DNA from: Geomonas silvestris
GTDB lineage: Bacteria; Desulfobacterota; Desulfuromonadia; Geobacterales; Geobacteraceae
Length of the DNA: 64,000 nt
Reading direction: 5' to 3'
NCBI RefSeq assembly: GCF_014193515.1
Contig: NZ_BLXX01000002.1
Span: forward strand, 434,001 to 498,000
Made by a program: the position numbers and the translations under genes
Shown: positions 46,719 to 63,124 of the stretch, one piece after another
How the letters are laid out: each line of letters begins with the position of its first letter
Position numbering within the stretch: the stretch's first letter is position 1
The notes under the pieces: generated by a model
What the model was told of the DNA's origin: nothing
Databases searched by the model: none
What the model saw: the letters and a program-made list of their open reading frames with translations, nothing else

Positions 46719-49181
46719 GTGAAACCTGCCCTGGAACTCTTCGAACCACCACTCATCGCCCTCTCACTGGGGGAGTTCGCCGTCCCGGTACCGAAAAACG
46801 GGCACCTGGAGAACCTGGCGGGCTTTGGGGCCGCCGCCGAGGGGCTGGAGATCCACCAGCGGGTGCAGCGCCGGCGGGCCAAGGCCGACCCGGGCTACCA
46901 GTGCGAGGTCCCGGTGAGCCGGGAGTTCGCGTCCCAGGGGTACCGGTTCCTGATCAAGGGGCGCCAGGACGGCGTCTTCCCGGGCAATCCCCCGCGCATC
47001 GAAGAGATCAAGACCAGCTTCAACATCCACGAGCTCTCCCGCCGCCTCGCCGGGGACCCCGAGCACCCCTACTGCCTGCAGCTGAAAAGCTACGGCTACT
47101 TCCACTTCCTGGAAAAGGGGGAGATCCCGGAACTCTCCTTTCACCTGGTCTCCACCCGCAACGGCAAGAGCCTCGATCTGCGGGTCGAGCTGGACCCGGC
47201 AGAGTACGAGCTGTGGCTGGCGCGGCGCCTGGAGGCCCTGGTTCTGGAGGCGGCCCAGGTACAGCGTCGGGTGGGACGGCGCCGCAAGCTCGCGGGTACC
47301 CTGTGCTTCCCCTTCGCCGATCCGCGTCCTGGCCAGCGCGAGCTGATCGCCTGTGTCGAGCGGGGACTGGTCCAGAAAAAGCCGCAGCTGGTCCAGGCCC
47401 CGACCGGTCTGGGGAAGACCGTCGGGGTGCTCTACCCGGTGCTCAAGGAGGCCCTGGGGCGCGGACAGCAGGTCATCTACGTCACCCCGAAAAACAGCCA
47501 GCACGGGGTCGCCGAGGACGCCGTGGAGCGCTTCCGGGGCGCGGGCGCTGCGCTTAAGTCCCTCACCATCACCGCGAAGCACAAGATCTGCCTCAAGGAC
47601 GAGCCCCTGTGCCACCCCGAGCTGTGCGAGTTTGCCCGTGAGTACTACGACAAGCTGGCGCGCTCCGGGGTGGTCGAGGTCCTCGCCCGGAAAAAGAAGC
47701 TGAAAGCCCGCCACTTCAGGTCGCTGGGCGAGGAGCACGAGGTCTGCCCGTTCGAGTTGCAGCTTGCGGTGCTCCCGGAGGCGGACCTGGTCATCTGCGA
47801 CTACAACTACGTCTTCGCCCCCCGTTCCGCACTGGGCCGGGTGACCGCGCTTACCGTCGGCCAGCGCGGCAAGCCGAGCCTGGTCGTCGACGAGGCGCAC
47901 AACCTCCCGTCCCGCGCGATGGACTACTACTCGCCGCAGCTCTCGGCGCAGCTTCTGGAATCCTGGCGCCCGGGGCTTGCGGGGGTGGCGCGCCCCTTCG
48001 GGGGCAAGGCCGTGGAACTTCTGGAGGGGTGCCTGGAGACCATCGCCCGGAGCCGGGAAGGGGAGGGGAGCCGCCCCCGGGCGATCCAGCCGCCGGTGCG
48101 GGCTTTTTCCGACCAGGAGGCGCGCATCGCCCAGGTGCTCTCGCGCTACCGGGAGTCCAGCCTGGAGATCGCCGGCGGCGACCCGCTTCTGGCCCTGGCC
48201 CGCTACTGGTCCGAGTTCACCGGGACGCTCGAGCTGGTGCGGGACGCCGCGGGCCGGGAGTTCTGCACCACCTTCCACCCGGCCGAAGGGGGCGTCCTCA
48301 AGATCATCTGCTGCGATGCCGGCCCGCAGCTTGCCGGCTGCTATGCTGGTTTCGAGCAGGTGGTCGGGTTCTCGGCGACCCTGAAGCCGTTCGACTACTA
48401 CGCCCGGCTCTCGGGCCTTGACCCGGCGCAGGTCCTCACCGAGGAGTTCCAGAGCCCCTTCCCTCCGGAGCGACGCAAGCTCATGATCATCCCGCAGATC
48501 TCCACCCGTTACAGCGAGAGGGAGCGCAACTACGGCAAGATCGCCGACGCCCTGGAGCGGATGGTGGCCCTGAAGCGTGGCAACTACTTCGCCTTTTTCC
48601 CGAGCTTCGGCTTCCTGGAACGAGTCGCCCAGCTGTTCCGGGCGCCGCAGGGGGTCGCGGTGCGCTGCCAGGAGCGCAAGATGGGCGCGGCGCGGGTGGA
48701 GGCGCTCCTCGAGGAGCTGCGCGACCCTCACGCCGCCACCGTGGTCTTTGCCGTGCAGGGGGGCTCCTTCTCCGAGGGGGTCGACTACCGGGGAGAGATG
48801 GCGATCGGCGCCTTCGTGGTCGGCCCCCCGCTCCCCACCTACGACCTGGAGCGCGAGCTGATGCGGGAGTACTACCAGCGCCGCTTCGGCCAGGGGTTCG
48901 AGTACGCCTACGCCATTCCCGCCATGGCCAAGGCGGTGCAGGCCGCGGGGCGGGTGATCCGCTCCGAGACCGACCGCGGCATCATCGTGCTCATGGACGG
49001 CCGCTTCCTGGAGCCCGGTTTCAGCTCGGCGCTGCCGCTCGACTGGTACGAAGACCAGGCAAACGAACTGGTTTCCACGGCGATACTCAAGGATCTCAGC
49101 GACTTCTGGGATCGCTGCACCCAAGGGGATGCCGCGCCTGCCGCTTCTGGGCTGCCGGCGCCTTCTGCCCCCCCGCGGTGA
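46719..49181 (+). CDS. PD-(D/E)XK nuclease-XPD/DinG-type helicase fusion
   Basis: 820 aa. N-terminal RecB/Cas4-like nuclease motif D84 ... E96-I-K98 (GRQDGVF, then RIEEIKTS). Helicase domain: Walker A QAPTGLGKT (K233), DEAH at 391-394 (VVDEAHNLPSRA), and the C-terminal motif VI QAAGRVIRSETDRG. Four cysteines between motifs I and II (C291, C298, C303, C343) match the XPD/DinG Fe-S cluster. It should unwind 5'-to-3' and cut flaps or structures; role in repair is inferred. No CRISPR genes are nearby. The start is GTG 46719 with a weak ribosome site, so the exact N-terminus is uncertain. Confidence 0.85.
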   Translation: MKPALELFEPPLIALSLGEFAVPVPKNGHLENLAGFGAAAEGLEIHQRVQRRRAKADPGYQCEVPVSREFASQGYRFLIKGRQDGVFPGNPPRIEEIKTSFNIHELSRRLAGDPEHPYCLQLKSYGYFHFLEKGEIPELSFHLVSTRNGKSLDLRVELDPAEYELWLARRLEALVLEAAQVQRRVGRRRKLAGTLCFPFADPRPGQRELIACVERGLVQKKPQLVQAPTGLGKTVGVLYPVLKEALGRGQQVIYVTPKNSQHGVAEDAVERFRGAGAALKSLTITAKHKICLKDEPLCHPELCEFAREYYDKLARSGVVEVLARKKKLKARHFRSLGEEHEVCPFELQLAVLPEADLVICDYNYVFAPRSALGRVTALTVGQRGKPSLVVDEAHNLPSRAMDYYSPQLSAQLLESWRPGLAGVARPFGGKAVELLEGCLETIARSREGEGSRPRAIQPPVRAFSDQEARIAQVLSRYRESSLEIAGGDPLLALARYWSEFTGTLELVRDAAGREFCTTFHPAEGGVLKIICCDAGPQLAGCYAGFEQVVGFSATLKPFDYYARLSGLDPAQVLTEEFQSPFPPERRKLMIIPQISTRYSERERNYGKIADALERMVALKRGNYFAFFPSFGFLERVAQLFRAPQGVAVRCQERKMGAARVEALLEELRDPHAATVVFAVQGGSFSEGVDYRGEMAIGAFVVGPPLPTYDLERELMREYYQRRFGQGFEYAYAIPAMAKAVQAAGRVIRSETDRGIIVLMDGRFLEPGFSSALPLDWYEDQANELVSTAILKDLSDFWDRCTQGDAAPAASGLPAPSAPPR

Positions 49182-49397
49182 GCTGTGGCTCCGGACCGGA
49201 CGGTGCAGGCCGAGGCGCCGCTTCCGGTAGGATTCCCCTCCCTTTAAAACCCTCCCCACTCCCCCCCGCTGGCTCGAACGGCCTGTCATGAAATAAATAT
49301 AATCTAATGATAACTACAGCTTTCGCGAATCTTCACCGATAACCTGAACAGCAGATTCCAGAAATCTAATCAGGCCATCGGCTGCATCGAGAGCATC

Positions 49398-53991: not shown

Positions 53992-54897
53992 CTAGGGCTT
54001 AAGCCGGGCCAGGTCCAGCACCGCGGCCGTCGCGGCGCGGCAGACCCGTGCGGCGAAGTCGAGGTTCAGGGTGGCGAGCGTGTCGCTCGGCTCGTGGTAG
54101 TGCGGGCTGCGGAAGTTGGTGGTGTCGGTCAGCATGAGCGCCGGGTAGCCGTGGTCCCAGAACGGGGCATGGTCCGAGCGCCGGGTATCCCGGAACATCT
54201 CGCCGTTTCCCGGCACCACCAGATGCAGGCAGGGAAGCTCGATTCCCGGGGCTTGGGCTGCGGCCAGGTAGACCCCCGAGAGTTCGCGCGAGCGCTCGTT
54301 GGCGACCACCGCGATGAAATCGCCCACTTCGGGGACCTTGGCCGGCAGGCCGGGGGGCGCCTGCTGCACCAGGTCGGGACCGGCGAAGCCGATCGATTCC
54401 AAAACCAGCACCCCCTCGATCTGCCACCCTTCGCGCGCCGCCAGTTCGGCCAGGGCCTTGCTCCCCAAGAGACCGGTGCCGTGGTCGCCGGTGGTCTGGT
54501 TCTCCTCGAGGCAGACCGCGATGAACTGCAGCGTCCGCTCGAAGGAGAGCCCGGCCAGGCGGCGGGCCATCTCGAGCAGCCCGGCCGTGCCGGAGGCGTT
54601 GTCGTCGGCTCCCGGCGAGTTCGCCACGGTGTCGTAGTGCGCCACCACCAGGACCCGCTCCTCGGGGCGGCCGGTCCCCGGCAGGGTCGCCACGATGTTG
54701 CGGAACATCCGGTCGTGGGCCGGGAAGAGCTGCTCCTTTACCTGGTACCCCAGGACAGCCAGCTCGCGGGCGGCGAAGTCTGCCGCCTGTTCCAGGGCCT
54801 CCGGCGCCGCCAGCGGGTGCCGCACCCCTTCCAACGCCTCGATGTGCTTCCCTATCCGCTCGCCCCACCCCGCGGGCGCGAGAATTTCCTGCCTCAT
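53992..54897 (-). CDS. M28-family zinc aminopeptidase
   Basis: 301 aa. Metal and catalytic residues in VVAHYDTVANSPGADDNASG, EENQTTG, RRSDHAPFWDHGYPALMLTD and PHYHEPSDT. No signal peptide, so cytoplasmic, unlike many secreted M28 enzymes. GAGGAGGGAG precedes the ATG. It is the last gene of the hemH-MoxR run, 40 bp after the 650-aa protein. Confidence 0.88.
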   Translation of the reverse strand: MRQEILAPAGWGERIGKHIEALEGVRHPLAAPEALEQAADFAARELAVLGYQVKEQLFPAHDRMFRNIVATLPGTGRPEERVLVVAHYDTVANSPGADDNASGTAGLLEMARRLAGLSFERTLQFIAVCLEENQTTGDHGTGLLGSKALAELAAREGWQIEGVLVLESIGFAGPDLVQQAPPGLPAKVPEVGDFIAVVANERSRELSGVYLAAAQAPGIELPCLHLVVPGNGEMFRDTRRSDHAPFWDHGYPALMLTDTTNFRSPHYHEPSDTLATLNLDFAARVCRAATAAVLDLARLKP

Positions 54898-54937
54898 GTA
54901 CTCCCTCCTCGAAACGGCCCGCAGCCGGGCCGGGAAA

Positions 54938-56890
54938 TTACCAGACGTAATCCTTGGCGAGCTCCCGCTTGTCCTTGCCGAACAGCACGTGGAACACCCT
55001 GAGTTTCTTGAGCGTCACCGGAGAGAGGCTCCCCAGCGGCAGGTAGATGACCCGCTTGCCGATCCGGCCGGCGTACTGCTTCAGGTAGCTCCTGGGGGGG
55101 CGTGCCGCCACGTAGACCACGTCCTTTTCCAGCGCGTAGTCGAGCGCCGCCAAAAGGAGCACCTCCGCCTTGGTGAAGTCTCCGCGGTAGTCGGGATCGC
55201 TCCAGACGTCGTAGATGCGGCGCGGCGGGTAGCTCAAAAGGAAACCGCCGTACTCGCAGCGCGAGATGCCGGGGCCCACGATGTGGTCGGTGGGCGGGGT
55301 GGCGAAGAAGGCCATGTCGGACTCCTGCTCGTGCTCCCCAAGCCAGGTCATGCAGTAGGGGAAGCGCTCGGCGCCGGCGTCCTCGTCGAAGATCACCACC
55401 ACGCACCCCACACCGCCGCGCAGCCGCCGGTTCTCCCGGACGTAGATCTTCCCCTCGTGCAGGTTCCTGAGCGTCTCGCGCATGTCGATACCGTCCAGCA
55501 TCGAGGTGGAGAACGGCTCGCTGCGCCCCTGCTCCTCGCTCAGCTGCAGGACCCCCAGGCGCTTCAGGTTGCGCCCGTACTCCTCGATGGCCAGATCTTC
55601 GGGGGGGTAGGAGCAGATCGAGGGGTCGTCGAACCCTTCGAGCCACTCGCCGGGGGCGCGCTCCTTTTTCCGGTTCAGCATCTTTACCAGCGAGCGCCCC
55701 TTGCCGCGCTGCTGCTCCTTGGGGCGGAAGCGGATGCGCCGGGTGGCGGACCAGAGGTCGGCGGCGGATAGCCTTATGGTGGGGAGGTCGCTCGCCTCGC
55801 GCTGCCAGGGGTAGTGCGAGGCCAGACGGTAAAAGGCATAGGCGAAGTTGTCGTCCAGGCACCCCCGGGCGGCGGCGAGCATCTGGAACAGGTCCGGGAG
55901 GAGCCGGCGCGTCAAGAGCGCGTAGTTGCGGGCGAACCGGAAGAAGGCGCGCATCTGCCAGCGCTCTACCCGGTCGCCGGTCTCCTGGCTGTAGTGGCGG
56001 GCCGCCTCAAGAAAGAGCCGCAGCATGACCTTCTGGCGGTCCGGCAGCTCCCCTTCCGGGCCCAGACGGCGCGCGCTGCGCTGCACGGATTCGGCAAGCA
56101 CCACCTCTTCGCGGATCTCGCGCTTCCCTCCGTTTATGAGTTCGAAGGCGTGGAAGCTCTTGCGCAGCGAGGCGCCCCCTTGGGCTGGCTCCGGCGGCAG
56201 CGGGGCGCGCCGGGTCTCGTAGAGGGCGCTTAAGAAGGGGTACTCGGCGAGAACCTCCTGGCAGCACTCGGGGTGCAGGTTGGCGATCTCCACCCCCTCG
56301 CGCCGGGCTCGCACCAAGGGCTGGGCCAGGGGCTTCCCGTAGAGCTCGCGGATCCGCTCCAGGTGGGCCATGCCGCAGAGGAAGAGGATTCGGGAGTGCT
56401 CGCGGGAGAGCTGCTGGAGCCGGAAGGCCATCGCCTGTTCGCGGCGCAGGTCCTCCTCCGCCGGGAGGATCTCCCGGTAGCGTGCGGCGACCTCGCGGTA
56501 AAAGGGGGCGAGCCCGATGCGCTGCACGGCGTAGGAATCGGGGAGCGGTTCGTCGTGGGCGGGGTAGGCGTCCAGGTCGGCGTCGACCAGAAAGAGGGGG
56601 ATCTCCTGCTCCAGGGCGAGGCGGCCCCCCTCCACCAGCGGGTCGGCCGGCTCGATGATCAGGTAGACGCTCTGTTCCTGGGCCGGGTAGGAGAGTACCG
56701 AGAGTTCGGGGAGGCGCCGCACCGCGCGCCGGAAGGGGGATTCCAGGGTGCTGGGAAGCTCCAGCGCGATGCAGTCGGGGTGAAGCGCCTGGACCGCCTC
56801 GCGCACCAGGTGGGCGAACTCCATGCGGTAGTGCAGGACGGGGAGGGCGTGGACCGGCCCGAAGGTTTCCAGGTGCAAGAGCTCGGACAT
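54938..56890 (-). CDS. 650-aa protein with TraB-like N-terminal region, function unknown
   Basis: Soluble, no membrane span. Residues 1-225 suggest a TraB/PrgY/ChaN-like fold: HYRMEF, CIALELPST (E44), IPLFLVDADLD, and CGMAHLERI with the GxxH-type H176. These residues could form a metal site. The rest (about 240-650) is Arg/Glu-rich then has a beta-rich C-terminal module with FDEDAGAERFPYC and EYGGFLLSYPPRRIYDVWSDPDY. I do not recognise the C-terminal family. It starts 13 bp after the MoxR ATPase, so it is the likely partner or substrate of that ATPase. Similar MoxR-linked large proteins exist in other bacteria, mostly uncharacterised. Confidence 0.6.
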   Translation of the reverse strand: MSELLHLETFGPVHALPVLHYRMEFAHLVREAVQALHPDCIALELPSTLESPFRRAVRRLPELSVLSYPAQEQSVYLIIEPADPLVEGGRLALEQEIPLFLVDADLDAYPAHDEPLPDSYAVQRIGLAPFYREVAARYREILPAEEDLRREQAMAFRLQQLSREHSRILFLCGMAHLERIRELYGKPLAQPLVRARREGVEIANLHPECCQEVLAEYPFLSALYETRRAPLPPEPAQGGASLRKSFHAFELINGGKREIREEVVLAESVQRSARRLGPEGELPDRQKVMLRLFLEAARHYSQETGDRVERWQMRAFFRFARNYALLTRRLLPDLFQMLAAARGCLDDNFAYAFYRLASHYPWQREASDLPTIRLSAADLWSATRRIRFRPKEQQRGKGRSLVKMLNRKKERAPGEWLEGFDDPSICSYPPEDLAIEEYGRNLKRLGVLQLSEEQGRSEPFSTSMLDGIDMRETLRNLHEGKIYVRENRRLRGGVGCVVVIFDEDAGAERFPYCMTWLGEHEQESDMAFFATPPTDHIVGPGISRCEYGGFLLSYPPRRIYDVWSDPDYRGDFTKAEVLLLAALDYALEKDVVYVAARPPRSYLKQYAGRIGKRVIYLPLGSLSPVTLKKLRVFHVLFGKDKRELAKDYVW

Positions 56891-56903
56891 GGAGCGCTCC
56901 GGG

Positions 56904-57722
56904 TTACTTGAGATAGCGGAGCGCCTCGTCGCCCAGGATGCGGGAGACCGCCAGCGGCAGGAGCTCGCGCGGGTCCTTGAGGGTCGCGGTCATCATCTTC
57001 AGGGCGTAGCGGGCGATGTTGATCCCGTCGCGCACCGAGTAGGGCTCGTCGGCGGCGTGTCCGCGCTGCAGGAAATCCACCACGTAGGAGAGGATGGCGT
57101 TGCTCGCGAAGGGGAGGTTCTCCTTCAGGATGGCGAGTTCCTCGTCGGCCTGCGGGAAGTCGATGTAGAGCTGGGGCTGCAGGCGGGAGTGGATGTACTC
57201 GGGGACCTCGAAGGTGGAGGAGTCCTCGTTCATGGTGACCACGATGCGGAAGTCCGGGTGGGCCTTCACCCGCAACCCGGTGATGATCGACTCCACGTAG
57301 CGCCGGTCGTCCAAAAGGGGGGCAAGCGAGGCCCAGGCCTTCTCGCTCATCCGGTTCCCCTCGTCGAGGATCAGGACGCCCCCCTGGAGCATGGCGGATA
57401 CCAGCGAGGAGGCGGCGTACTGAATGGCGCCGGTTGGGCCGATGACCGGGGTGATGATCAGGTCCTCGGGGCGGGTGTCCATGGTGGCCTGGAAGAGGTA
57501 GACCGGGCGGCCGAGCCTTTTCGCCGCGGCGTAGCCCAGGGTGGTCTTGCCGACCCCCGGCTTGCCGATCAGGCGCGGGTTGAAGGGGAGGTCGCGCTCG
57601 TCGATCACCATCCAGGCCGCCAGAAGCTGCCGGAGGATCTCCTCGTCGCCCACCCAGTTCAGCGGCAACTCGATGGGGTTCGCCAGGGTGAGCGCGATGC
57701 CGTCTAAGGTGATGGTCTGCAT
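56904..57722 (-). CDS. MoxR-type AAA+ ATPase
   Basis: 272 aa. Walker A LIGKPGVGKTTLGYA (53-60), Walker B GGVLILDEGNRMSEKAW (D120/E121), sensor 1 RIVVTMNED. Compact AAA_5-type ATPase as in MoxR/CbbQ proteins that remodel a partner and often aid metal-centre insertion. Usual VWA-domain partner is absent; the 650-aa protein takes that position. GGAGAAC precedes the ATG. Confidence 0.88.
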   Translation of the reverse strand: MQTITLDGIALTLANPIELPLNWVGDEEILRQLLAAWMVIDERDLPFNPRLIGKPGVGKTTLGYAAAKRLGRPVYLFQATMDTRPEDLIITPVIGPTGAIQYAASSLVSAMLQGGVLILDEGNRMSEKAWASLAPLLDDRRYVESIITGLRVKAHPDFRIVVTMNEDSSTFEVPEYIHSRLQPQLYIDFPQADEELAILKENLPFASNAILSYVVDFLQRGHAADEPYSVRDGINIARYALKMMTATLKDPRELLPLAVSRILGDEALRYLK

Positions 57723-57775
57723 TATGTTCTCCAGCGTCCACTCCCCCGCCTGGGGGGGAGGGAGGGCCGATCGCT

Positions 57776-57955
57776 TTAGGTATTGAACTCGTGGTTGTAC
57801 ATCATGGAGAGCCGGGCGCGGTTCTCCAGGCAGCTCTCACAGAGCTCGCCGGCGTCCTTCCAGAGCTCCCCGGCGAGCCACTCCCCCGCTTCGCCGTAGA
57901 GGGAGCGCGGCGCGTTCTCGTCGAACTCCGCCTTGCAGATGCTGCAGGTTTTCAT
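57776..57955 (-). CDS. Small zinc-ribbon protein
   Basis: 59 aa. Two CxxC knuckles, CSIC (residues 4-7) and CESC near position 40, spaced by about 32 residues, suggest one zinc site. Its ATG overlaps the hemH stop (ATGA), so it is translationally coupled to hemH. It lies between hemH and the MoxR ATPase. Function unknown. Confidence 0.75.
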
Positions 57956-58911
57956 GGCGTCACGACGCGGCGCACCAGGTCGGCCAGGCACTCGAGGAAC
58001 AGGGGGGAGGAGTTGAGCGACGGCGAGCGGACGAAGCGCTCGATCCCGAGGCTTTTGGCCTCCTCGGCGTACTGGATGTCGATCTCGTGCAGGGTCTCGA
58101 TGTGGTCAGAAACGAAGGAGAGCGGCACCATGAGGATCTCTTTTCTCCCCTCTCCGGCCAGGCGCTTGAGCGTCGCCTCAGTGGAGGGCTCCAGCCACTT
58201 CACCCGGCTCGCCTTGGACTGGAAGCAGAGGTGGTGCGGGCTCGCGTTCCCCAGCTGCTCCATGACCAGGCGCACCGTGGTCTGGATGTGCTCCAGGTAG
58301 GGGTCCCCCTCGTCGATGAAGGACTGCGGCAGGGAGTGCGCCGAGAAGAGGATCTGCACCTGGCTCGGATCGGGGAACTGGGCCAGCCCCTCGCGCACCT
58401 TCTCGGTAAGCGCCTTGATGTAGATGGGATGGTCGTAGAAGCGGTCGATGCAGGTCACCTGGAAGCGATTCCCCGCCTGGCTGAGCACCCGGCTCAGCTC
58501 GTTGAGGCTCGAACCGGTGGTGGCCTTCGAGTAGTGCGGGTAGAGCGAGAGCACGATGATCCGCTGGATCCCCGCCTTCTTGATGGCCGCCAGCGCCTCC
58601 AGGGTGGAGGGGCGCGAGTAGCGCATCGCCACGAAGTAGCGGTAGTCGTCCCCCAGAAGTGCCTGGAGCCCCTGCCCCTGGGCGTCGGTCAGCTCGCGGA
58701 TCGGGGACTTGCCGCCGATCTCCCGGTAGTGCTGCGCCACCTTGGGCGCGCGTTTTTTCACGATGCGCCGCGCTATGAAGGGTTGCAGCAGGGAGGGCCC
58801 GATTTTAATGATGTCGCGGTCGGTGAACAGGTTCATAAGAAACGGTTCCACGGCGGCGATGGAGTCGGGGCCACCCATCTGCAGCAAAAGGAGTGCGGTC
58901 TTCTCGGCCAT
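57952..58911 (-). CDS. hemH: Ferrochelatase
   Basis: 319 aa. Inserts iron into the porphyrin ring at the end of heme synthesis. N-terminal [11 protein letters not shown], catalytic His in [12 protein letters not shown], and [17 protein letters not shown] with conserved Glu. GAGAGG precedes the ATG. First gene of the run hemH-zinc ribbon-MoxR-650 aa-M28. Confidence 0.95.
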
Positions 58912-59544: not shown

Positions 59545-59966
59545 CGCAGGCCTCCAGAGCTTCACGCATGGATCGGACGTCTTTGGCGTAAATATGAGAA
59601 AACTTATTTGGGTATTCTAATGTTTTTCCGGGAGAAGTCAAGATGGAAGCGAAAGATTTTATCGAACCTTTCCGCCGCGCGGGAACGGGGGAGGGCCACC
59701 TCGGTAAAACGGAGGGGGCCCTCGCTCGTGCTGCGTTCTGGAGAGAGGGCCAGCTCAGCCTGAACTCCGCGGGGTTGCAGCGCTGCCGGACAGAATAAAC
59801 GCGCTGGTGAAATCAAGATGCGGGAAAAAGGGCTCAAGGTGACTGCCGGAGCTCCGATAGCTAATGATAAAATTTCCTTCCGGCGGCCGGTTTAGGAAAA
59901 AGGTGTTCAAAAGATAGACAGTTGAGCTCTTTTGTTTATAATGAGTAGCTTGTGCGAGTGCCTCTC
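59545..59966. other. Intergenic region upstream of the cytochrome oxidase operon
   Basis: 422 bp. It holds the oxidase promoter at 59915-59942. A 51-codon frame (59643-59798, beginning MEAKDFIEPF) has a GGAG ahead of it, but its composition is not convincing; see rejected items. Confidence 0.5.
59915..59942 (+). promoter_or_regulatory. Promoter of the sco-cox operon
   Basis: TAGACA (59915-59920), a 16-bp spacer and a perfect TATAAT (59937-59942), 25 bp before the proposed ATG. Confidence 0.7.
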
Positions 59967-60815
59967 ATGGAAAATGTGATATCCCCCCGCTGGCGTCGCG
60001 GTGTGCTGCGGTGTCTCCTCGTGCTGTTGGCCGCCCTGTGGGGCACCCCCTGCGGCGCCGGGCCGGCCGGTCTGCAGGCGAGCCCTGACGGCGGTGAAAC
60101 CGGCAACCGGGTCGGCCTCGACGAACGCCTGGGGGCCAGGCTCCCGCTCGACCTGGTCTTCCGGGACGAGACCGGGAAGGAGGTCCGGCTGCGCGAGCTG
60201 ATCACCGGGCCGACCATCGTCTTGCCGGTCTACTACGGCTGTTCAAACGTCTGCAACTACCTGCAGGGGGGGCTCGCGCGGGTACTCCCCGAGGTGAAGC
60301 GCGTGCCCGGGAAGGAGTACCGGGTCATCTCGGTGAGCATCGACGAGACCGAGACCCCGGAGCTCGCAGCCCGCTACCAGCGCATGTACTTAAGCGCCCT
60401 GAGGGTCAACTTCCCGCCGGGGGGGTGGAAATTCCTCACCGGCGACGCGCAGAACATCAAGAAATTCGCGGATGCGGCCGGCTACCACTTCCAGCGCAAG
60501 GGGCGGGACTTCCTGCACCCGGTGGCGAGCTTCGTGGTGGCGGGGGACGGCATGATCGTGCGCTACCTCTACGGCACCAGCTTTCTCTCCAAGGACCTGA
60601 CGCTCGCGCTCCTGGAGGCGCGGGAGGGGAAGGTGGGTACCACCATCCGCAAGGTGGTGGACTACTGCTTCAGCTTCGATCCCAACAGTAAAAGCTACGA
60701 GTTCAACCTGCTGCGGGTGAGCGCCACGGCGGTGATCCTGTGCTGCGGCGGGTTCTTCCTGTTCCTGGTGCTCACGGGCAGAAAAGGCAAACAACATCCT
60801 TTGGGGGACAAATGA
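59967..60815 (+). CDS. sco: SCO1/SenC-type copper chaperone for cytochrome oxidase
   Basis: About 282 aa. Signal peptide, thioredoxin-like fold with the copper site YYGCSNVCNYL (CxxxC) and the later His in DFLHPVASF. A C-terminal membrane span (about 250-272) is unusual; most SCO proteins anchor at the N-terminus. GTG 59952 is an alternative start five codons earlier. It overlaps coxA by four bases and should deliver copper to CuA of subunit II. Confidence 0.88.
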   Translation: MENVISPRWRRGVLRCLLVLLAALWGTPCGAGPAGLQASPDGGETGNRVGLDERLGARLPLDLVFRDETGKEVRLRELITGPTIVLPVYYGCSNVCNYLQGGLARVLPEVKRVPGKEYRVISVSIDETETPELAARYQRMYLSALRVNFPPGGWKFLTGDAQNIKKFADAAGYHFQRKGRDFLHPVASFVVAGDGMIVRYLYGTSFLSKDLTLALLEAREGKVGTTIRKVVDYCFSFDPNSKSYEFNLLRVSATAVILCCGGFFLFLVLTGRKGKQHPLGDK

Positions 60816-62437
60816 GTTCGGCAGAAAGTAGGCAACCCGTTGCAGAAGGGTTCTGGGGCGACACCGGCAAGACAGGCCTGGGCTCCTGGATCTTCTCCAC
60901 CGACCACAAGAGGATCGGACTGCTCTACCTCTACTCGGTGACCGGATTCTTTCTGGTCGGCGTGATCCTGGGCCTTTTGATCCGCATCGAACTGATGGCG
61001 CCGGGCAAGACCATCGTGGACGCGCAGACCTACAACGCGCTCTTCACGGTGCACGGCGTGGTGATGATCTTTTTGTTCATCATCCCGGGGATACCGGCCT
61101 CCTTCGGGAACCTGGTGATGCCGATCCAGATCGGCGCCCGCGACGTCGCCTTCCCGAGGCTCAACCTCTTCTCCTGGTGGCTCTACGCGATCGGCGCCCT
61201 GGTGGTGCTCACCTCGCTCTTCACCGGCGGGGGGGCCCCGGACACCGGATGGACCTTCTACGTCCCCTTCTCGGCCCGAACCGGCACCAACGTCTCGCTC
61301 GCGGTCTTCGGGGTCTTCATCCTCGGCTTCTCCTCCATCCTCACCGGGGTGAACTTCGTGACCACCATCCACCGGCTGCGCGCCGACGGGATGAACTGGG
61401 GGCGGCTGCCGCTTTTCACCTGGTCGCTCTACGCGACGGCCTGGGTGCAGATCCTCGCCACCCCGATCATCGCCATCACGCTCGTCCTGGTGATCGCCGA
61501 GCGCGTCCTGGGCGCCGGGCTCTTCGACCCCGGCCGCGGCGGCGATCCCATCATGTTCCAGCACCTGTTCTGGATCTACTCGCACCCGGCGGTCTACATC
61601 ATGATCCTTCCCGCCATGGGGGTCATCTCGGACATCATCCCGGTCTTCTCCCGTAAGCCGATCTTCGGCTACAAGATGATCGCCGCCTCCAGTATCGGCA
61701 TCGCGGCCGCGGGCTCCCTGGTCTGGGGCCACCACATGTACACCTCGGGGATGAGCGACACCGCCATCATGGTCTTCTCGTTTCTCACCTTCATCGTGGC
61801 GATCCCCTCGGCCATCAAGGTCTTCAACTGGGTCTCCACGCTCTACAAGGGGTCCATCTCGCTCGAGGCCCCCATGCTCTTCGCGCTCTCCTTCGTGCTG
61901 CTCTTCTCCATCGGCGGACTCTCCGGCCTGATCCTGGGGGCGGCGGCCACCGACATCCACGTGCACGACACCCACTTCGTGGTGGGGCACTTCCACTACG
62001 TGATGTTCGGCGGCACCGGTTTCGCCTTCTTCGCCGCCGCCCACTACTGGCTCCCCAAGTTCTTCGGGCGCCGCTACAAGGAGAAGCCGGCCATCGTCGG
62101 CTGGGCGTTCATGTTCGTCGGGTTCAACGTCCTCTACTGGACCATGCAGGTCCTGGGGATGCACGGGATGCCCAGGCGCTACTACGACTACCTCCCCGAG
62201 TTCGCCCCGCTCAACTTCGTGGCCACCGTGGGGAGCTGGATCCTGGCGACCGGCCTCGTGATCGTGCTGGTGAACCTGGTGAAGGGGCTCAAGAGCGGCG
62301 AGCCGGTGGGTGAAAATCCCTGGGGCGGCGCCACCCTGGAGTGGCAGATCGCCACCCCGCCCCCCACGGAAAACTTCGAGGGGGACCCGGTAGTGACGCA
62401 CGGACCCTACGACTTCAAGGGGGTCGTCAAGCCATGA
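60812..62437 (+). CDS. coxA: Cytochrome c oxidase subunit I (aa3 type)
   Basis: About 541 aa, 12 spans. TDHKRIGLLYLYS, heme a ligand His in LFTVHGVVMIF, CuB ligand in FWIYSHPAVYIMILPAMG, WGHHMYTSGM, and HDTHFVVGHFHYVMFGG. YSHPAVY replaces the ESHPEVY form, so the K/D-channel Glu is absent and Tyr-Ser is present, as in A2-type oxidases. ATGA overlaps with sco and with coxC show tight coupling. Confidence 0.95.
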   Translation: MSSAESRQPVAEGFWGDTGKTGLGSWIFSTDHKRIGLLYLYSVTGFFLVGVILGLLIRIELMAPGKTIVDAQTYNALFTVHGVVMIFLFIIPGIPASFGNLVMPIQIGARDVAFPRLNLFSWWLYAIGALVVLTSLFTGGGAPDTGWTFYVPFSARTGTNVSLAVFGVFILGFSSILTGVNFVTTIHRLRADGMNWGRLPLFTWSLYATAWVQILATPIIAITLVLVIAERVLGAGLFDPGRGGDPIMFQHLFWIYSHPAVYIMILPAMGVISDIIPVFSRKPIFGYKMIAASSIGIAAAGSLVWGHHMYTSGMSDTAIMVFSFLTFIVAIPSAIKVFNWVSTLYKGSISLEAPMLFALSFVLLFSIGGLSGLILGAAATDIHVHDTHFVVGHFHYVMFGGTGFAFFAAAHYWLPKFFGRRYKEKPAIVGWAFMFVGFNVLYWTMQVLGMHGMPRRYYDYLPEFAPLNFVATVGSWILATGLVIVLVNLVKGLKSGEPVGENPWGGATLEWQIATPPPTENFEGDPVVTHGPYDFKGVVKP

Positions 62438-63033
62438 GCCACGAGCACAAGGACAACGTCGGCGCCAAGCTGGGGATGTGGCTCTTCCTCTTCACGGAAC
62501 TGCTTCTTTTCGGCGGGCTCTTCATCCTCTACTCGGTCTACCTAAGCCGCTACCCGCACGAGTTCACCTCGGCAGGCAAGGAGCTCAACGTGGTGTTCGG
62601 GACGACCAACACCGTGGTGCTCTTGACCTCGAGCCTCTTCGCCGCCATGGCGGTCACCTCGATCAAGCGCGGCGAAAAGAAAACCACCCTGTCGCTTCTG
62701 GTGGCGACGCTCGCCTGCGCGGCCACCTTCATGGTGATCAAGTACTTCGAGTGGACCGCCAAGATCCACCACGGCATCTACCCGGGCTCCCCCAAGCTCG
62801 CCGCGGGACCTCCGGGGGAATCGGTCTTCTTCAGCCTGTACTACATCACGACCGGCCTGCACGGCATCCACGTCCTGATCGGCGGGGCGCTTTTGGCCTG
62901 GATCGGCACCAAGGTGCAAGGCGGCAGGCTGAACGCCGGCAACAACGTCATGCTCGAGAACGGCACCCTGTACTGGCACCTGGTGGACCTGGTCTGGATC
63001 TTCATCTTCCCGCTCTACTACCTGATCCTCTAG
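62434..63033 (+). CDS. coxC: Cytochrome c oxidase subunit III
   Basis: About 199 aa, five spans. LGMWLFLFTELLLFGGLF, FEWTAKIHHGIYPGS, and YYITTGLHGIHVLIGGALL, then YWHLVDLVWIFIFPLYYLI. Start ATG 62434 overlaps the coxA stop. Short form lacking the first two helices, as in caa3-type oxidases. Confidence 0.94.
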   Translation: MSHEHKDNVGAKLGMWLFLFTELLLFGGLFILYSVYLSRYPHEFTSAGKELNVVFGTTNTVVLLTSSLFAAMAVTSIKRGEKKTTLSLLVATLACAATFMVIKYFEWTAKIHHGIYPGSPKLAAGPPGESVFFSLYYITTGLHGIHVLIGGALLAWIGTKVQGGRLNAGNNVMLENGTLYWHLVDLVWIFIFPLYYLIL

Positions 63034-63124
63034 AAAGAGCTGCCGGCTGGGTATCGCGCGCCGGGAAAGGGCGCGCACGACATGTACATGAGAAATGATC
63101 GGGCAGTGGTCAAGGAGCATCCCT

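Follow-up and report, generated by a model that had tools for sequence, protein, structure and literature searches.

In the window, by which we mean the whole 64,000-nucleotide stretch of the Geomonas silvestris genome analysed here (NCBI RefSeq assembly GCF_014193515.1, contig NZ_BLXX01000002.1, positions 434,001 to 498,000 of the forward strand), a gene for a MoxR-class AAA+ ATPase directly precedes a gene for a 650-amino-acid protein, here called T650, and the two genes are inherited together. MoxR ATPases typically work with VWA proteins, as stated in excerpts of PMC13036017, and no VWA gene adjoins MoxR at this locus. We propose, with the case for and against about evenly balanced, that MoxR and T650 together make up a dedicated AAA+ machine of two components, which is related to the yehL-yehM portion of the Escherichia coli yehL-M-P-Q cassette but is VWA-free. 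The MoxR sequence carries Walker A (GKPGVGKTT) and Walker B (LILDEGN) motifs, and its nearest solved sequences are midasin, NorQ, and CbbQ. T650 had zero matches at E 1 in Pfam, NCBIfam, and PADLOC. The pair and the parts of T650 are laid out as follows.

56904..57722, minus strand: MoxR-class AAA+ ATPase of 272 amino acids, the partner of T650 (AAA_5, 69.7 bits against a cut-off of 22)
54938..56890, minus strand: T650, 650 amino acids, the partner of MoxR (whole gene including the stop codon)
56321..56890, minus strand: T650 residues 1 to 190, a TraB/TIKI-like domain with H20, E24, E44, and H176
55811..56047, minus strand: T650 residues 282 to 360, a helical bundle whose alignment with YehM/DUF5682 extends to residue 345
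54941..55663, minus strand: T650 residues 410 to 650, an unrecognised C-terminal module (C-module) with a 16-residue polar signature

In Chlamydiota, T650 and its MoxR clade (E 1e-20) each occur in 22 of the 92 genomes, and the two sets of genomes are identical. Two Chlamydiota drafts (G675 and G686) carry MoxR and T650 on different contigs; therefore, the presence of the two genes appears to be coupled without close linkage. When 13 genomes were checked, all six T650 carriers had a MoxR match at E 1e-143 or better, and none of the seven without a full T650 (one with a fragment only) had one better than 4.1e-7. Tree distances of MoxR and T650 across 49 loci correlated with an r of 0.83, to which shared species phylogeny contributes (at most 0.27 in 2000 permutations), and T650 evolves about twice as fast as MoxR.

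A single scan of genome contigs gave 140 T650 relatives, and neighbourhoods were taken from the best 80 of these 140. MoxR lies upstream of T650 on the same strand in 73 of the 75 informative loci (each with at least 900 nt upstream), at a distance of at most 350 nt in 65. It was also found in 51 of the 59 short-flank loci (L081-L139), many of which represent genes already sampled, with T650 identity falling as low as 41%, and it directly precedes the T650 relative in the very divergent loci L182 and L183. Among 40 lineage representatives, the T650 cluster was present in 39, MoxR in 38, and the next commonest gene in only six; with one plasmid locus added (41 representatives), MoxR was present in 40, the ferrochelatase gene hemH in two, and an M28 peptidase gene in one. 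Because only MoxR recurs with T650, we treat the pair as a two-gene unit and hemH, a small Cys4 gene, and the M28 peptidase gene as its neighbours. One T650 gene (L074:8212-10095) runs in two frames on the contig of a metagenome-assembled genome.

The N-terminal half of T650 could be related to a named protein through a DUF5682 profile built from ten DUF5682 proteins, one of them YehM of E. coli. In hhalign, T650 residues 9-345 matched YehM residues 2-325 over 292 columns at 97.8% (E 8.9e-13), with a score of 110.7, whereas 20 column shuffles reached no more than 23.3; by this profile alignment, T650 and YehM are homologous across T650 residues 9-345. Within the C-terminal half (residues 282-650), only the bundle aligned with DUF5682, at 1.2%. 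The window T650 itself had no DUF5682 match at E 1, and five T650-family relatives (four among 198 genomes and one among 119) exceeded the cut-off of Pfam DUF5682 (PF18934) along a portion of the model, three of these only together with adjacent pieces. The E. coli genes run in the order yehL (MoxR), yehM, yehP (VWA), yehQ (SWIM), and the order at T650 loci, MoxR and then a YehM-type gene, is that of yehL-yehM. Three further plasmids carry MoxR directly before DUF5682, or one small gene before it, with VWA nearby. T650's MoxR aligned with YehL-type MoxR at 85.8% (E 5e-6). A YehL-M-P type operon, by sequence MoxR-DUF5682-VWA, is present in G046 (L226:98-4955), a relative from the same taxonomic order that is without T650 and its MoxR, and the genome with T650 locus L213 (G409, Acidobacteria phylum) also encodes two DUF5682 proteins. 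In the open-licence PubMed Central literature, we found no functional paper on E. coli yehLM and no mention of DUF5682, or of YehM together with MoxR; among the matches listed there, yehM is mentioned in a genome announcement and a strain resource.

Residues 1-190 of T650 hold the core fold of the TraB/TIKI superfamily, as an earlier note on this DNA had suggested when it called the protein TraB-like and pointed to E44 and H176, both of which are conserved without exception in the 44 relatives aligned. H20, E24, E44, and H176 can be read as the counterparts of H55, E59, E79, and H250 of TraB, where the hhalign alignment covers the first part of the TraB site and the pairing of H176 with H250 is our own reading. 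For counting, 148 full-length members remained after identical ones were dropped (190 before), with two divergent members set apart; these relatives are not independent of one another. Of the 131 members outside Nitrospirota, 128 have an intact tetrad (101 of 104 after clustering at 90%); none of the 15 Nitrospirota members do (0 of 10 after clustering), and in these H20 is mostly kept, E24 is replaced by D, E44 by P or G, and H176 by D.

The most conserved part of T650 is the C-module. Mean identity to the window protein is 67% for residues 410-650 versus 54% for residues 1-190 in 133 members outside Nitrospirota, and 36% versus 28% in the 15 from Nitrospirota. At sixteen polar positions, the sequence is CEDEDDRERWEHESHR in 121 of the 131 members outside Nitrospirota and in 15 of the 15 within it (94 of 104 and 10 of 10 at 90% clustering), and the near-invariant residues are C426, E431, D432, E436, D466, D469, R471, E472, R475, W516, E519, H520, E523, S524, H634, and R642. 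The module had no consistent Pfam match in the 64 members scanned and none among PDB sequences. A model of residues 282-650, comprising the bundle and the C-module together, reached a mean predicted local distance difference test (pLDDT) score of 80.7 with weak stretches; it had no fold match at E 0.001 in Foldseek (PDB and viral libraries) and VIA, with little beyond histone-fold-like bundle matches, so that the description of this module as unrecognised in the earlier note holds up. Because the C-module was modelled together with the bundle and the fold search covered the PDB, the viral libraries, and VIA, we do not claim a new fold for it. A search for stand-alone copies in 247 genomes of T650's own phylum found 38 with a match, all already in the T650 survey; every C-module match in them belongs to a T650-family frame or to a piece of such a frame at the end of a contig, that of G177 being the divergent L182. 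An M14-like HxxE...H metal site was considered and rejected, as too few residues follow H634.

In profile searches, the own genome had 0 VWA_CoxE and 0 VWA_2 matches, and the same profiles gave VWA_2 matches in 12 and VWA_CoxE matches in 8 of 14 control genomes. No VWA gene is among the recurring neighbours of the pair in the lineage representatives, which bears out the earlier remark that this MoxR lacks a VWA partner gene; no SWIM gene is among those neighbours either, the SWIM profile not having been searched genome-wide.

Among close relatives, T650 had a match in 52 of 58 (own genome counted), 51 of them full-length. At E values no higher than 1e-100, T650 was detected in 44 of the 297 genomes from its own phylum (13 more had weak N-domain matches) and in 6 of 149 genomes of the Acidobacteria phylum (two weak), and at about E 1e-76 or better in 20 of 118 Nitrospirota genomes; together with Chlamydiota, its relatives span four phyla. 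A protein search with residues 420-560 returned 5627 proteins at E 0.001 from 5897 candidates, and among the 120 matches listed, nearly all are named hypothetical protein and one is a TraB/GumN family protein. A MoxR-T650 pair annotated as AAA family ATPase and hypothetical protein is carried by plasmid pS13 of Neochlamydia sp. S13 (L225:7108-9821). A phage or plasmid origin was rejected, with one plasmid match in 72,556 records and no PHROG for T650. The very divergent MoxR and TraB-like pair of G177 (L182:2305-8396; 317 and 782 amino acids) stands alongside a RyR-domain AAA gene, a TIR-like open reading frame (ORF, by eye), and a TPR protein, which is possibly a defence context.

Three further genes flank the pair in the window.

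57952..58911, minus strand: hemH, ferrochelatase, a local neighbour outside the two-gene unit (TIGR00109, 336.9 bits, above the cut-off)
57776..57955, minus strand: 59-amino-acid Cys4 protein with two CxxC motifs, a local neighbour (ORF sequence)
53992..54897, minus strand: M28-family peptidase, a local neighbour (Peptidase_M28, 118 bits, above the cut-off)

Pfam, NCBIfam, and PADLOC matches of the Cys4 protein all fell below the cut-off. The earlier note had read these five genes as one minus-strand operon with spacings of -4, 54, 13, and 40 bp, and the ORFs and gaps are as it gave them, as are the ATGA overlap of the Cys4 gene with hemH and the identity of hemH itself. What survives as a general arrangement is the recurring MoxR-T650 unit; the five-gene operon does not, since hemH, Cys4, and M28 seldom recur. 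The hemH gene was found within 2.5 kb of T650 at 15 of 68 loci and anywhere upstream at 20 of 80. The Cys4 gene occurs in 19 of 80, and an M28 peptidase gene stands beside T650 in one of 73 other loci (L001). The two lineage representatives with hemH are the Geobacteraceae loci L001 and L009, and the record names of hemH-bearing T650 loci are presumably those of Geobacteraceae or its genera. On the opposite strand beside hemH (59952-63098), the window has a SCO1/SenC-like gene, whose Pfam score falls slightly short of the cut-off, and, by eye, genes for cytochrome oxidase subunits I and III; this neighbourhood may explain the presence of hemH at this locus. Elsewhere (46764-49289), the window has long ORFs on both strands, of 841 amino acids on the minus and 820 on the plus strand, the former without a Pfam match at E 0.001.

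The same counts bear on the function that the earlier note had proposed, a system for remodelling heme proteins or metal centres that is linked to ferrochelatase. The gene-neighbourhood survey it called for found MoxR and T650 mostly away from hemH; we regard this link to heme synthesis as largely refuted by gene neighbourhood and the proposal itself as highly improbable. A stronger, although still doubtful, alternative is a chaperone for cofactor insertion or complex activation like NorQD or CbbQO, in which T650 would be a pure adaptor whose TraB-like domain recognises a client without hydrolysis. The relationship of MoxR to midasin, NorQ, and CbbQ would fit such a role, as would the Nitrospirota members, which dispense with the tetrad yet keep the C-module signature; however, nearly all other members retain the tetrad intact, as they should if it is an active site, and no client gene recurs beside the pair in the lineage representatives. 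It is rather unlikely that the C-module is instead a VWA domain with a lost metal site, the pair then being an ordinary MoxR-VWA pair with its adaptor fused to a TraB-like domain. Such a fusion would account for the missing VWA gene, and the motif DGIDxRETLRNLxxG with the hydrophobic strand after it, which ends in D, does resemble by eye the stretch before the YehP VWA core, on which the best, insignificant, hhalign match of the C-module falls. This suspicion by eye gained no support when hhalign was run against two VWA groups with shuffles (0.5% to YehP-type VWA and 0.15% to VWA_CoxE; a score of 18.4 compared with at most 23.3 in 40 shuffles), no VWA chain is among the matches listed by Foldseek/VIA for the model, and DxSxS is absent from the window T650 and found in the last 260 residues of only one of 148 members.

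An anti-phage or MoxR-type conflict system seems less probable again. It could draw on the patchy occurrence in the sampled phyla, the Neochlamydia plasmid copy, the RyR-AAA gene and TIR-like ORF (by eye) adjoining the divergent pair at L182, and the published MoxR-vWA-VMAP ternary conflict system, defined in excerpts of PMC7159879. The vWA component of that system was found neither recurring beside the pair nor, with the VWA_CoxE and VWA_2 profiles, in the own genome. In addition, nothing in PADLOC matched T650 and the AAA+ matches of MoxR there were all weak (best E 0.002), the flanks by eye hold mostly housekeeping-like genes, T650 is present in most close relatives, and MoxR evolves slowly.

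Several observations weigh against the two-component machine that we prefer. MoxR lies 1.1 to 8.8 kb from T650 in eight loci; it was not upstream in two of the 75 loci (L024 and L049, the L024 genome carrying T650's MoxR on another contig), was not inside the flank in 8 of the 59 short-flank loci, and was not in the fetched stretch of L213. Some T650 carriers have VWA proteins elsewhere (15 VWA_2 matches in G347, for example), and because of these carriers, VWA absence is not a rule for all. The Foldseek E-value of the TraB match was only 0.09, T650 falls short of the Pfam TraB model (no match at E 1), and TraB-type hydrolysis is not a universal function because the site is broken in Nitrospirota. 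The divergent L182 and L183/L152 (the same gene) are without the C-module signature, and a docking role for the module is a guess because the 282-650 model has no fold match.

In the proposed two-component machine, MoxR would form a hexamer, and, going by its conservation and the co-inheritance of the two genes, the C-module may dock on the MoxR ring where a VWA protein usually sits. ATP hydrolysis would then move T650, gating or driving the N-domain, which from its fold is a putative hydrolase of peptide or ester in most lineages and would be a binding or remodelling domain in Nitrospirota. By analogy, such action would resemble NorQ-NorD or McrB-McrC, with a motor and a ring-anchored partner, the partner here bearing its own hydrolase-like domain. 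McrC is a nuclease subunit. According to excerpts of PMC13036017, NorD is attached to NorQ both through its C-terminus and through a VWA finger in the pore of the ring; a similar finger occupies the pore in McrB-McrC, whose partner protein has no VWA. We suggest, somewhat more tentatively than the machine itself, that the C-module is a new domain replacing VWA as the cofactor of the MoxR ring, and that it may itself contain a further site for catalysis or metal binding; the pair would then represent a MoxR machine of a new class, gated by ATP, independent of VWA, and carrying on one and the same chain a TraB-type hydrolase that has decayed in one phylum. The pair is a case of a MoxR clade co-inherited with a non-VWA partner, in an organism without a detectable VWA_CoxE or VWA_2 protein, and it connects yehLM of E. 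coli with the hydrolase fold of the TraB/TIKI superfamily. Nitrospirota, with a broken TraB-type site and a retained C-module, provide a natural experiment that separates the two halves of T650.

Compared with known systems, T650 shares with the TraB/PrgY/gumN and TIKI superfamily (TraB, ChaN, erythromycin esterase, RRSP) the fold of residues 1-190 and the tetrad, whereas the remainder of T650 is not TraB-like and the site is broken in Nitrospirota. The likeness to McrB-McrC is that of a motor with a partner, drawn from the text of PMC13036017 as excerpted, with no relatedness demonstrated. NorQ-NorD and CbbQ-CbbO (MoxR plus VWA) include some of MoxR's nearest solved relatives and likewise combine a motor with one large cofactor, but T650 has no recognisable VWA or metal ion-dependent adhesion site (MIDAS). 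In comparison with yehL-M-P-Q, T650 loci are without a recurring VWA or SWIM gene, the C-module of T650 differs, and the MoxR belongs to another clade; what the two have in common is a MoxR gene followed directly by that of a large protein with a TraB-like domain and a helical bundle.

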